Assembly: GCF_013201825.1 (NCBI RefSeq)
Contig: NZ_CP053836.1
Location: 1,178,001-1,242,000, forward strand
From: Halarcobacter ebronensis
Lineage (GTDB): Bacteria; Campylobacterota; Campylobacteria; Campylobacterales; Arcobacteraceae
Length of the DNA stretch: 64,000 bases
Direction of reading: 5' to 3'
The notes under the pieces are model-generated. The model was not told the DNA's origin. It saw only the letters and a list, made by a program, of their open reading frames with translations, and did not search any database. Positions 21,808 to 26,511 of this stretch are shown piece by piece; positions within the stretch are counted from its first letter, which is position 1, and each line of letters begins with the position of its first letter. The position numbers were made by a program, and so were the translations under genes.

Positions 21808-23547
21808 TTAAGAATATGACAAGCCTAAATTCAAGCCAGCAAGTTGAATAGTTTCGTCATTATCATATCTAGTCGTTAGCAAGTCATATTTAGTATTTAA
21901 GTCTCGACCTTGCAATAATCCTTGTAATTCTACTAAAAAGTCATATTGTCTATTTTTGACTACATAGTCATCACACAGCACTACTTGTATATACTCTTCA
22001 TTGTAGTCATTAAGTAAGGTTAGCAATTCTGTAACATTGAAAGTTACAACTTTATACAAAAACAAAACTATTAGCGAATCAATGACATCATCAATATTTT
22101 TGATATTGGTGAAATCATTATCTTTAAATTCAATGGTTTCATAATCATTTTCTATCCATAGTTCACATATGGTTTGAATAACCTTACCACCATATTGAAT
22201 TGAGTTTGTTAGGTTTTTTAAAACCAATGCATTTATTACTTCTTTAGTATCTTCGAATTTCTCTGTTTCTGGAAGAGCTTTCCCTATTCTTTCCAAGTCT
22301 TCCAATGTAGAAAGATACAACAGCCTATTTGTAACAAATTTTAATTTTTGTGTATTTGCTCTATTCTCAGCGCTACTTGAATTGTCATAATCTAGCTTTA
22401 AAAGCTTATTGAATTCAATCAAATAAAATTTTTGTAGGTTGATGAGTTGTTTTACAATGTATTCATTTTTCGTAAAGTAAATTTCAAAAGTGCTATATCT
22501 TTTTTCATTCTTGATTAAACTCTTTATATAGGACATAAACCCTTTGCTTTTGGCTTGATTCTTGATTCTACTCAATGGAATATTGTAACCCAACGATTTA
22601 ATGTCTTGTTCCAAACTATCAATTTTTGAAGGATGCATCGATACATATGCAGTAATAAAATTCAGAACTTCAAATAAATTACCTTCTTCAAGATCATTGT
22701 TTGAATGCAGCAATTTCCATTCATCCAAAGTCAATTGATCAGTTTTTTCGGTATTGATATTTAGCTCATTTGGTAATGAAGCTTTTACATATTCAATGAC
22801 ATCATCTTTTTCTATTGCCTTGCATATTATAATAATGTCATCAACATATCTAAAATATTTTTCTGGAAATTGTTCAGATAGTTTAGTATCAAAGTCTTCT
22901 AAATAAATCTGAGCCATTAGATGACTTAATTCGGTACCTATAGGTACACCTTTTGAAGATTGTTCAAGAATTGAGTTTGTTATATTGCTTGCTAACTTAA
23001 AAATTTGAGGTTCAGTGTTCTCTTCAAGCTTTGCAATAAATTGATTTTTGACAGCTTCAATATTAATTGATGGATAAAATTTTGATAAATCCAATACAAG
23101 TGCTATTGAATTTTGATTTTCTAGTAAAGCCTTGTATACATCTTCATTTCTTCGTTTATAACCATTAAAATAATATTGAAAATTTCTAGTAGATTTTGTG
23201 TTTTCAGGAAGTAAGTAACTGTAAATAAATTTTTTGTTTTCTATAAAATTTTCTTGAGACATCAATCTCATCAAATATGATTCTGAGATTATTCCAAAAG
23301 GAGATAGAGATAATATGTCTCTGTAAATGAAATCATTTTCACTTTTTTCTTTATATAATTTATTTCTTTTTGTTGCCCAATGCTTTCTAACTTGAAGCTT
23401 TCTTTTTATTAACTCATCAAACAACTTGTTTCTCACTGATGATTCTGAAAAATCTTCGTAGAAGCAACGTATACTTAAATACAAAATTGGATTTAAAGTT
23501 TTTACTTGATTGAGTGACCTCATAGCAATATTATGGTAATTATTCAT
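21808..23547 (-). CDS. Reverse transcriptase of unassigned (UG/Abi-like) type, putative defence RT
   Basis: A 579-aa protein with a complete RT palm: ALVLDLSKFYPSI (motif A Asp, 153), SKGVPIGTELSHLMAQIYL (198-216) and the catalytic YFRYVDDIIII (YVDD, 234-237). About 330 helical residues with no recognised catalytic motif follow, as in Abi-like and other unknown-group RTs. The ATG at 23547 has AAGGGA upstream and is one base from the partner's stop; an upstream in-frame start would only add residues inside that gene. It lacks the retron VTG motif and space for an upstream msr-msd RNA. No maturase domain, intron RNA or DGR template repeat was seen. A role in phage defence is inferred from RT class and cassette context. 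Confidence 0.82.
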   Translation of the reverse strand: MNNYHNIAMRSLNQVKTLNPILYLSIRCFYEDFSESSVRNKLFDELIKRKLQVRKHWATKRNKLYKEKSENDFIYRDILSLSPFGIISESYLMRLMSQENFIENKKFIYSYLLPENTKSTRNFQYYFNGYKRRNEDVYKALLENQNSIALVLDLSKFYPSINIEAVKNQFIAKLEENTEPQIFKLASNITNSILEQSSKGVPIGTELSHLMAQIYLEDFDTKLSEQFPEKYFRYVDDIIIICKAIEKDDVIEYVKASLPNELNINTEKTDQLTLDEWKLLHSNNDLEEGNLFEVLNFITAYVSMHPSKIDSLEQDIKSLGYNIPLSRIKNQAKSKGFMSYIKSLIKNEKRYSTFEIYFTKNEYIVKQLINLQKFYLIEFNKLLKLDYDNSSSAENRANTQKLKFVTNRLLYLSTLEDLERIGKALPETEKFEDTKEVINALVLKNLTNSIQYGGKVIQTICELWIENDYETIEFKDNDFTNIKNIDDVIDSLIVLFLYKVVTFNVTELLTLLNDYNEEYIQVVLCDDYVVKNRQYDFLVELQGLLQGRDLNTKYDLLTTRYDNDETIQLAGLNLGLSYS

Positions 23548-23548
23548 G

Positions 23549-24445
23549 TTATTCCCTTGAATATTGCTTGAGGATAATCGCACTTTTTGGCGTATTCCCT
23601 GTAATTGGATCATGCCACTGAAATCTAGCATCAGGATTAATTGAAAGATTAATTACTTTGGATAACCATGTTGTCAATTTATTATGGAGTTTGTCTATAA
23701 ACCCTAAAAAGGTACTTGCTTCATTCGTGTTGGGTTCAATATACAATATAGTTGTATGCAAATGTGACAAGGCAGTTTGTATATAGTCAAAGGATTTATC
23801 AAATTTTTTATAATTACTGCTACCTACACCGCTAAAAGCCGACATGAGGACATAATGCTCTTCATATTTGTCTTCTTCTTTTAAGAACTGCCTTATTAAT
23901 AAATTCGTTGATTGTGGGTTTGTCGCGTCCCATTCGCAAGTTTCGTATTCAATAAAAATCAAATGTTGTTTAAGAACATTTTCTATCTCTTGCAACAACT
24001 GGCTATAAATCATTAATGCCGATGTTGAAAAGTCAGCTCCTACTATATTTACATGCAATGGCAACTTTGGCAGTTTCGAATGGAACCGTAATTCTGCGAG
24101 ACTTGTAAGCAGTGACAGTATCCCCGCACCCGTACCCGCAGGGATATCTAATATAGATATTTCCCCACTACTAAATGTGGATTTTAAATTATTAGAAACT
24201 GTTTTGAAGTCTTCTCTTGGATCAATTACAACAAATTGTGTTCGAGCTGATGAAGTTAAAAATCTTTCTGCAAAATGTTTTTTTGTTTCATCATCATTTC
24301 TACCACCAGTGGCTCCTACAGAATTGTTTGTATGATTCTTTGCATGCTCATACATAGATAATGCAATTAATTTGTTTTTATAAACCTCTATGAGGCTTTC
24401 TGGTTGGTAAAGAATGTTATCTTTCCATAAACTATCTGGAGTCAT
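23549..24445 (-). CDS. SAM-dependent methyltransferase-like protein paired with the RT
   Basis: A 298-aa cytoplasmic protein with a Rossmann-type SAM-binding motif ISILDIPAGTGAGILSLL (about 97-113), followed by VNIVGADFSTSALMIYSQLL, the acidic end of the second strand. Strand-like CEWDATNP and HYVLMSAFSGVGSSNYKKFD follow. A target motif such as NPPY is not visible, so the substrate is unknown and the fold may be used for something other than methylation. ATG 24445 (AGGA upstream) is preferred to GTG 24460. It is the first gene of cassette 1 and one base before the RT, so the pair travels and is translated as a unit. Confidence 0.65.
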   Translation of the reverse strand: MTPDSLWKDNILYQPESLIEVYKNKLIALSMYEHAKNHTNNSVGATGGRNDDETKKHFAERFLTSSARTQFVVIDPREDFKTVSNNLKSTFSSGEISILDIPAGTGAGILSLLTSLAELRFHSKLPKLPLHVNIVGADFSTSALMIYSQLLQEIENVLKQHLIFIEYETCEWDATNPQSTNLLIRQFLKEEDKYEEHYVLMSAFSGVGSSNYKKFDKSFDYIQTALSHLHTTILYIEPNTNEASTFLGFIDKLHNKLTTWLSKVINLSINPDARFQWHDPITGNTPKSAIILKQYSRE

Positions 24446-24486
24446 AGATTTCCTATTCACTGTGTTTTAATATGGGGCACATTTCA

Positions 24487-25056: not shown

Positions 25057-25219
25057 CTAAAATTTTGCGGCTAGGATAGTCCAGACTTTGGTAAAGCCGA
25101 TATTTTTATGATTTAAAGCGAAAAAAGTCGAAACTGTTTGAGCGTTAAGAAATGTGATTTAATATCACATTTTAGCGAGTTGCCACCTTAAAAAAACATA
25201 AATATAATCATTAAAAGAA

Positions 25220-26191
25220 TTAAATCCTATTTGGCTCATAGACTTCATTATTTTTATAAATTGAATGAGCAATAATTAATAATTTTCGCATAATTGCAAC
25301 TTGTATAACTGTTGTGTGTTTCCCATTCTCTTTTAACCTATCATAAAAACTTTTTAATCTTTCATTATGTCGTACAGATGTCATTGCTGGCATAAACAAA
25401 GTACCTCTACATATTTTTGAACCTGCTTTTGATATTTTAGTCTTACCTTTAACTGAACTTCCTGAACTCTTTTCTATTGGATCTAATCCTGCTAGGGATA
25501 CTATTTGTTTTTGATTGGCATTTGGATATTGTGTGAAATGTGATAATAATACTATTGCAGATATTTCTCCTATACCATCAATTGTTTGAATATTTTTAAA
25601 TGCTTCTTGGAGTTTCTCATCTTTTTTTATCATAGATTTAATTTGTTTAATAAGTTTTAATTCTTGCTTTTTTAAAAATTGATACTGTGATTCTAACTCT
25701 TTAATTGAATAGCTCTTTTCTCTTTTTGCTTTTAAAGCTGCAATATGATTTTTGGCTATTACTTGTTGTTTAATAATAAGTTTATAACAGGCTATTAATT
25801 CTTTTAACTCTTCTTCAACCGAATTAATTATAGGTACTTTAATATCTTCATTTTTAGCTGTTACAATCATCTTAGAAAGTAATCTAGCATCTTTTATATC
25901 TGTTTTATTTCTATGTCCGATTACTTTCGCAAAGCTTGCACTTTTTTTAGGATTGACAATAAAACTTTTTATATTTTGATTTGCACAAAAAGATTTTAAT
26001 AAAAAAGAGTAATTAGAAGTTGGTTCATAAACAAACACTAATTTATCCAGTTCTTTTTTATAATATTTTTTTAATTTAGAATATAAACTTTTTATTGATT
26101 TTAGATTATTCTCAATAATCAAATCTAAATCATTATATGGAACATACACATTGATTGTTGACTTACTAATATCTAATCCGATAGAATACAT
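25220..26191 (-). CDS. IS110-family transposase (DEDD recombinase)
   Basis: A 323-aa recombinase of the IS110 family. The N-terminal RuvC-like domain starts IGLDISKSTINVYV and has VYEPTSNY and HRNKTDIKDARLLSKM, supplying the acidic DEDD residues. After a coiled-coil linker the C-terminal Transposase_20 domain reads IQTIDGIGEISAIVLLSHF and LAGLDPIEKSSGSSVKG, with the Ser-rich segment holding the conserved serine. Length is full, so the element may be active. It sits just upstream of the cassette array in transcription order and may have truncated it. IS110 elements lack clear terminal inverted repeats, so the ends are not defined. Confidence 0.92.
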   Translation of the reverse strand: MYSIGLDISKSTINVYVPYNDLDLIIENNLKSIKSLYSKLKKYYKKELDKLVFVYEPTSNYSFLLKSFCANQNIKSFIVNPKKSASFAKVIGHRNKTDIKDARLLSKMIVTAKNEDIKVPIINSVEEELKELIACYKLIIKQQVIAKNHIAALKAKREKSYSIKELESQYQFLKKQELKLIKQIKSMIKKDEKLQEAFKNIQTIDGIGEISAIVLLSHFTQYPNANQKQIVSLAGLDPIEKSSGSSVKGKTKISKAGSKICRGTLFMPAMTSVRHNERLKSFYDRLKENGKHTTVIQVAIMRKLLIIAHSIYKNNEVYEPNRI

Positions 26192-26420
26192 TTCTAGAAC
26201 CTTTATTTTAGGATAAAGAGTTCGTTAGGGTAGGATTTCTCCTACCTGATAATTGTTACACCAAATTTAGACTTATAAAATACGAACTAGCAATGCTGTT
26301 CTTGTTGCCACTCAAATTTAAAGTATAACTATCAAACTCGCCATCAAGCTAATTATTTTTTATAATTGCTTTAGTTCCGCACCGATATATTATCTTTCAA
26401 ACTCTAAGGAAATATATTAT
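26192..26420 (-). ncRNA. Candidate IS110 bridge RNA region (left-end non-coding segment)
   Basis: About 230 non-coding bases lie immediately upstream of the transposase on its own strand, where IS110-group elements encode their bridge (seek) RNA. The clearest structure is a 7-bp stem GGTAGGA/TCCTACC closed by a GAAA tetraloop (26246-26229 on the minus strand), a typical RNA GNRA hairpin. Target- and donor-binding loops were not resolved by eye, so the limits are approximate. Confidence 0.4.
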
Positions 26421-26511
26421 CATATTCCCTTAAATGTATTATATAAGTTTTGCAGACTAGCTTTAAAAAATAAAAATTGAAGGGACTCTGTAAGAGCTTT
26501 AACAACTGTTT

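Follow-up and report, generated by a model that had tools for sequence, protein, structure and literature searches.

What does the long non-coding end in front of an IS110 recombinase gene encode, and how does it bear on the translation of that gene? The question is raised by an IS110-group insertion sequence in Halarcobacter ebronensis (assembly GCF_013201825.1, contig NZ_CP053836.1). The window, that is, the whole stretch analysed, comprises 64,000 nucleotides (positions 1,178,001 to 1,242,000 of the forward strand) of a 3.17 Mb genome in a single contig, and positions below are those of the window. The left end of the element very probably encodes a bridge RNA, a claim with as much support as sequence alone can give. 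The bridge RNA of this Campylobacterota IS110 family would in addition be part of a two-state mRNA leader: formation of a helix, P1, would free the ribosome-binding site (RBS) of the recombinase, and loss of P1 would close it. The recombinase would hence be translated in cis only from RNAs with the 5′ part of the bridge RNA, which would tie enzyme to guide and keep activity limited. We give this reading a probability of about 0.5. P1 and its competitor, a hairpin over the Shine–Dalgarno (SD) region, are supported by comparison of related leaders; the switch function that links recombinase translation to the RNA carrying its own bridge RNA is one that we infer.

The element, its ends and its target

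The element and its parts are as follows.

25178-26447, minus: entire IS110-group element with its two CT cores, 1270 bp, with two identical copies elsewhere in the genome
26448-26457, minus: left target flank (LT), GTCTGCAAAA
26446-26447, minus: left core CT, from the copies and the empty site, placed within the shared AACT by analogy with IS621
25220-26191, minus: IS110 DEDD recombinase of 323 aa, from the open reading frame and domain profiles
25178-25219, minus: short right end with the left donor, GGTGGCAA
25178-25179, minus: right core CT, from the copies and the empty site
25170-25177, minus: right target flank (RT) after the core, CGCTAAAA

The three copies in the genome are the same over 1270 bp and have different flanks. 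An uninterrupted copy of an intergenic repeat (G000:C1:1866987), a paralogous empty site, reads through sequence that resembles what the flanks of the window's copy give when joined. Together these fix the ends at 26447 and 25178, which enclose the segment upstream of the transposase that a first-pass annotation had marked as a possible bridge RNA. AACT, found at each end of the element and a single time in the empty site, therefore contains the core; we place the core at CT, the exact dinucleotide being chosen by analogy with IS621, for which a CT core is reported (PMC11208160). An AA core, our first reading from the copies alone, was dropped: AACT is common to both ends, and CT is the core that agrees with the guides and the relatives. 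The empty site indicates a scarless insertion at this short core. From core to start codon the left non-coding end measures 256 bases against 42 on the right, the much longer left end being typical of the IS110 group.

The target is a repeated intergenic sequence, ..TGCRRAA-CT-C.., and the flanks in the window belong to that repeat family. The genome has 23 occurrences of the pattern TGCRRAACTC, against 2 of the backward control; judged by eye, 5 of the 23 sites lie in recognisably related intergenic repeats (L074, L078, L082, L084, and L090) and the others look unrelated. These five, spread across the chromosome with the target uninterrupted, are probably landing places for the element. That the repeats might be integron attC sites was considered, with no evidence in its favour. 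A genome search with the pattern CTGCNNAACTCGY gave no match, because the empty sites differ past the core. At a further locus (L014, G000:C1:720400-721700, bases ~650-760), a palindrome of ~62 bp joins the left end to its own inverse at the 5′ stem-loop, with target sequences on both sides in opposite orientation and no transposase; it resembles a fusion, at their left ends, of two copies in opposite orientation.

The recombinase, which the first-pass annotation took to be complete, is an intact reading frame with the domains PF01548 (DEDD_Tnp_IS110) and PF02371 (Transposase_20) and the conserved serine of the group, and scores above the cut-off of the NCBIfam model 'IS110 family RNA-guided transposase'. 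It is detectably related to the IS621 recombinase (phmmer E 5.8e-29 to 8wt6). The catalytic residues reported for IS621 are D11, E60, D102, D105, and S241 (PMC11208158); E56, D98, D101, and S243 align with the last four, and D7 was assigned to D11 by inspection, since the alignment begins at residue 28. Close relatives include an Arcobacteraceae record (L019), and a genome of the window's family contributes an identical leader (L035); tblastn of plasmids with the recombinase found only relatives below 60% identity. As the three copies are identical and the catalytic residues intact, the sequence suggests that the element is active.

Guides and fold of the bridge RNA

From 5′ to 3′, the left end contains the following features.

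26438-26443, minus: TATAAT -10 box just inside the left end, read from sequence and found in most relatives; putative junction promoter of the circular form
26405-26432, minus: 5′ stem-loop of the bridge RNA
26398-26405, minus: P1a, 5′ strand of the outer closing helix, AGAGUUUG
26389-26394, minus: P0a, GAUAAU, 5′ strand of a helix enclosing both loops
26373-26382, minus: left target guide (LTG), GUGCGGAACU, matching LT CTGCRRAA+CT
26346-26371, minus: stem-loop within the target-binding loop
26337-26342, minus: right target guide (RTG), GGCGAG, matching CT+CGC
26323-26329, minus: 5′ strand of the donor-loop basal stem, 5/7 pairs with changes on both sides
26304-26311, minus: left donor guide (LDG), GUGGCAAC, matching GGTGGCAA+C
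26284-26301, minus: stem-loop within the donor-binding loop, 6/7 pairs with changes on both sides
26272-26278, minus: right donor guide (RDG), UUAUAAG, matching CT+TATA
26255-26261, minus: 3′ strand of the donor-loop basal stem
26248-26253, minus: P0b, AUUAUC, 3′ strand of the helix enclosing both loops
26229-26246, minus: 3′ hairpin, GGUAGGA-GAAA-UCCUACC, 7/7 pairs with changes on both sides
26217-26224, minus: P1b, CGAACUCU, pairing with P1a or the RBS region
26197-26223, minus: SD hairpin, GAAC-U-CUUUAU..AUAAAG-GUUC, burying the RBS AAAGG (26200-26204)

Two internal loops carry the four guides (left and right target, left and right donor), all of them readable; at two LTG positions of the window's copy, rG stands opposite dT. 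Related elements were collected by protein search (13 loci; 23/200 genomes; 22/398 genomes) and with a covariance model of the RNA, R1 (33/398 genomes). In a phylum-wide draw, R1 matched in 19/397 genomes, all in the window's order, the split of the draw by order being unstated. R1 also matched three places where the protein searches listed no recombinase (G010:C1:2237803-2238034, G067:C13:114840-114913, and G037:C17:37708-37813), which could be decayed copies or contig ends.

The guides were compared with the flanks and ends of their own elements and with permuted ones, using 50 distinct leaders and three extra copies (53 elements) and excluding those whose right or left end had not been identified; three right-target guides (L106, L039, and L041) were assigned manually by reading the sequence, and two were blanked (L140 and L141). 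RT matches its own RTG with a score of 3.96/5 (permuted 1.45 ± 0.24; 0/20,000 as high; 24 distinct pairs), and LT its own LTG with 4.70 (permuted 2.64 ± 0.21; 0/20,000 as high; 41 distinct pairs). For the right donor (RD), with RDG read by alignment column and ten elements lacking an identifiable RD, the score is 3.5/4 (permuted 2.73 ± 0.15; 2/20,000; 12 distinct pairs). As in the IS110 group, the target-loop guides thus match the flanks and change with them, and the donor-loop guides match the ends of the element, RDG by covariation and LDG by direct match only.

The leader as a whole has a more stable predicted fold than shuffled sequence (z -3.66; 0/200 shuffles as low). Without structural input, RNAalifold on a sequence-only alignment of 19 leaders (A1) returned five helices: the donor-loop basal stem, a short donor-loop stem, the donor-loop hairpin, the 3′ hairpin, and the hairpin over the RBS. 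In this consensus fold of 33 pairs, 97.6% of the cells are paired (36-42% in slid controls), and 21/33 pairs show changes on both sides, compared with 12.1 ± 1.7 in shuffles and 3-6 in slid controls. Of the five measures, one (further pair types) does not exceed the shuffles (44 versus 43.2). The 3′ hairpin, which the first-pass annotation had picked out on the coding strand, is the fourth consensus helix, with 95.5% of the cells paired across the 19 aligned relatives; the changes on both sides at all seven pairs bear out that proposal. Its reading as an intrinsic terminator was rejected because no run of T follows. In one relative (L029, ~998-1272), extra GC-rich segments within the donor-loop region and ahead of the start codon break the RNA.

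Helix P0 was scored in 43 leaders, seven rows of the alignment of 50 distinct leaders (A2) being left out. Its own score is 10.8 against 8.2 ± 0.3 for swapped partners (0/20,000), and the same strand set against the donor hairpin as a control gave nothing (7.7 versus 8.35); individually, P0 is significant in only 14/43 leaders.

The proposal of a bridge RNA upstream of the transposase is thus upheld by agreement among ends, guides, and conserved helices. The segment first proposed, 26192-26420, does encode the RNA and is somewhat short at its 5′ side: the RNA probably starts near 26431, ~11 bases beyond 26420, since that is where the 5′ stem-loop begins and the -10 box lies. An Rfam scan of the window gave no match at the gathering threshold, and the bridge RNA therefore has no confirmation from any library model.

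Two competing helices in the leader

P1 is formed by the strand just after the 5′ stem-loop and P1b, past the 3′ hairpin, with a median length of 8 bp. It was tested in 42 leaders; eight A2 rows were left out, two with the module deleted (L036 and L054), one with an unrelated 5′ part (L024), two without a recognisable P1b (L140 and L141), and three cut by contig ends (L039, L138, and L041). The P1 score is 18.2, compared with 10.2 for letter-shuffled strands (p<=0.05 in 35/42 leaders) and 16.3 ± 0.3 for swapped partners (0/20,000 as high). When the partner of P1b is slid along the whole leader, P1a is the only peak (18 versus ~9-12 elsewhere). In L106 both strands have changed, to GAGAATTC/GAATTCTC from the GAGTTC/GAACTC of the others, and the L103, L102, and L046 groups keep a P1 of 9-13 bp despite altered sequence. 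Another pairing, of GTTCGT in the donor loop with ACGAAC downstream, looked possible in the window's element and was discarded: P1b is constant where the donor hairpin changes (L040 and L060), and the sliding test shows P1a as the sole strong partner.

P1b is also the 5′ arm of the SD hairpin. This arm and the RBS side co-vary (GAAC/GGUUC, AAAC/GGUUU, AAGC/GGCUU, and GAGC/GGCUC), L106 again differing with UUCUCCU/AGGAGGA, and the arm classes require seven changes on a tree of 28 recombinase proteins, each of at least 180 aa. In 39/41 leaders, at least three of the four RBS bases are paired within the hairpin. Because they share bases, P1 and the SD hairpin are mutually exclusive. Constrained folds of 41 leaders (L024, L029, L039, L041, and rows without P1b excluded) give a median difference of 0.7 kcal/mol in favour of the SD hairpin, with a range from -4.5 to +6.2. 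At the level of sequence and energy, the leader thus has what marks an RNA switch, two mutually exclusive conserved helices of which one buries the RBS.

A simple model can be drawn, its first part modelled on IS621. After excision the ends of the element would abut, and the TATAAT box near the junction would drive an RNA from ~26431; the recombinase would bind the bridge RNA, and target and donor would be held together for strand exchange at CT. With P1b paired to P1a, the bridge RNA would be closed and the RBS free; with P1b paired to the RBS, recombinase translation would be blocked. During transcription P1 may form first and keep the RBS accessible, the leader passing to the closed form later. 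The recombinase would be made in limited amount and only from RNA carrying the 5′ part of the bridge RNA; if translation needs that part of the same RNA, the enzyme comes from transcripts that also carry the bridge RNA.

Several observations weigh against this picture. In the window's own leader, the SD-closed state is favoured by 2.2 kcal/mol and the probability of P1 is 0.03. P1 has just 5 bp in L038, L060, L042, and L136, and since P1b is nearly invariant, its covariation depends on few variants (L106, the L046 group, and L103/L102). The deletions in L036 and L054 run through the 3′ hairpin and P1b, and the lack of a recognisable P1b in L140 and L141 counts likewise. Among the guides, the match of RT to RTG is wholly absent in 2/24 pairs (L100 and L042), LT matches are poor in several elements, and LDG, nearly invariant in the relatives, has no covariation test for that reason. 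The permutation values are uncorrected for kinship among the elements.

The most serious alternative, which we rate at a little under even odds, accepts the bridge RNA and dispenses with the switch. P1 would do no more than close the mature bridge RNA, and the SD hairpin would act as a brake on the mRNA at all times. Sharing of a strand would simply follow from short spacing, and the two helices would never compete in the cell, the mature RNA being cut from the mRNA. P1 and the SD hairpin are indeed each supported independently, and short and longer potential precursor RNA forms are reported in other IS1111/IS110 elements (PMC11187229). Against it, the shared strand keeps complementarity to both partners where it has changed (L106 and the L046 group), and the two states are near equal in energy over the 41 leaders. 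Dual complementarity and near-equal energies are what a switch predicts, though they are no proof of one.

It is very improbable that the leader is a translational control region alone, without a guide RNA. Hiding of the RBS is published for the 5′-UTR (untranslated region) of ISPpu9 (PMC8450116), and the SD hairpin is strongly conserved here, but the leader holds four guide segments that fit the element's own target and ends, and in three of these the sequence follows that of the target from relative to relative. The first-pass annotation had also considered the IS1111 group, with a guide RNA downstream of the gene; although the DEDD type is common to IS1111 and IS110 recombinases (PMC11208160), this is practically untenable, as the four guides and the longer non-coding end lie upstream and the 42-base downstream end is too short for such an RNA.

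Comparison with known systems

As described for IS621 (PMC11208160, PMC11208158), the RNA lies in the left end behind what would be a junction promoter and runs from a 5′ stem-loop through a target loop to a donor loop; four guides, a CT core, a short RTG, and targets in repeated intergenic sequence are likewise shared. The IS621 bridge RNA is reported as 177 nt with separate target (nt 34-98) and donor (nt 110-177) modules (PMC11208158). The RNA described here departs from that architecture of separate stems and an RNA end at the donor stem beside the start codon: both loops sit within P0, the RNA has an additional 3′ hairpin, and P1b, a separate strand, pairs with P1a or the RBS region. In a named IS621 copy (L154), 177 nt counted from AGTGCAGAG reach the base just before the ATG (upstream of base 599); this start base is our own placement, supported by the fit of the published module limits. 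Since the RNA appears to end directly before the start codon, the RBS of IS621 lies inside the donor-loop stem, and in that element as well folding of the guide may compete with translation. A bridge RNA that overlaps the RBS may thus be general, the form here being different.

ISPpu9 of Pseudomonas putida is similar in residing in repeated extragenic palindromes and in its 244-nt transposase leader, reported to hide the RBS and lower translation (PMC8450116). The opener proposed there is an antisense RNA, Asr9, whereas here a strand of the same leader could open the hairpin (an antisense RNA was not sought). ISEc21, of the seekRNA work (PMC11187229), is also an IS110-type element whose upstream non-coding region yields a guide RNA; recombinases in its cluster are given as 345-385 aa compared with 323 aa here. 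The GAAC..GGUUC module was present in 0/5 leaders from outside the phylum (IS621 and four others, folded and read); a sixth, L155, was excluded for want of an annotated start. No such bridge-RNA translation switch was found in the literature searched (titles and beginnings of abstracts, with many subscription papers and bioRxiv preprints outside the scope), which is weak evidence of novelty, and a search for IS110 with Arcobacter found none.

Next to the insertion sequence, the stretch 21808-24460 (minus) holds a UG36-group reverse transcriptase (PADLOC RT_UG36, E 3e-161) and an overlapping upstream reading frame. The latter aligns with the RT_UG35 profile in its N-terminal part (E 2.8e-12), and the locus is a candidate for phage defence.

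Bridge RNAs are under development as programmable genome editors, and the balance between guide and recombinase in natural IS110 elements is little described in the literature consulted. The family offers a compact bridge RNA (~215 nt) from Campylobacterota with many natural target variants, and with P0 and the 3′ hairpin a fold that differs from the IS621 model. In its leader, guide folding and enzyme translation could be set against each other with simple reporter mutants.
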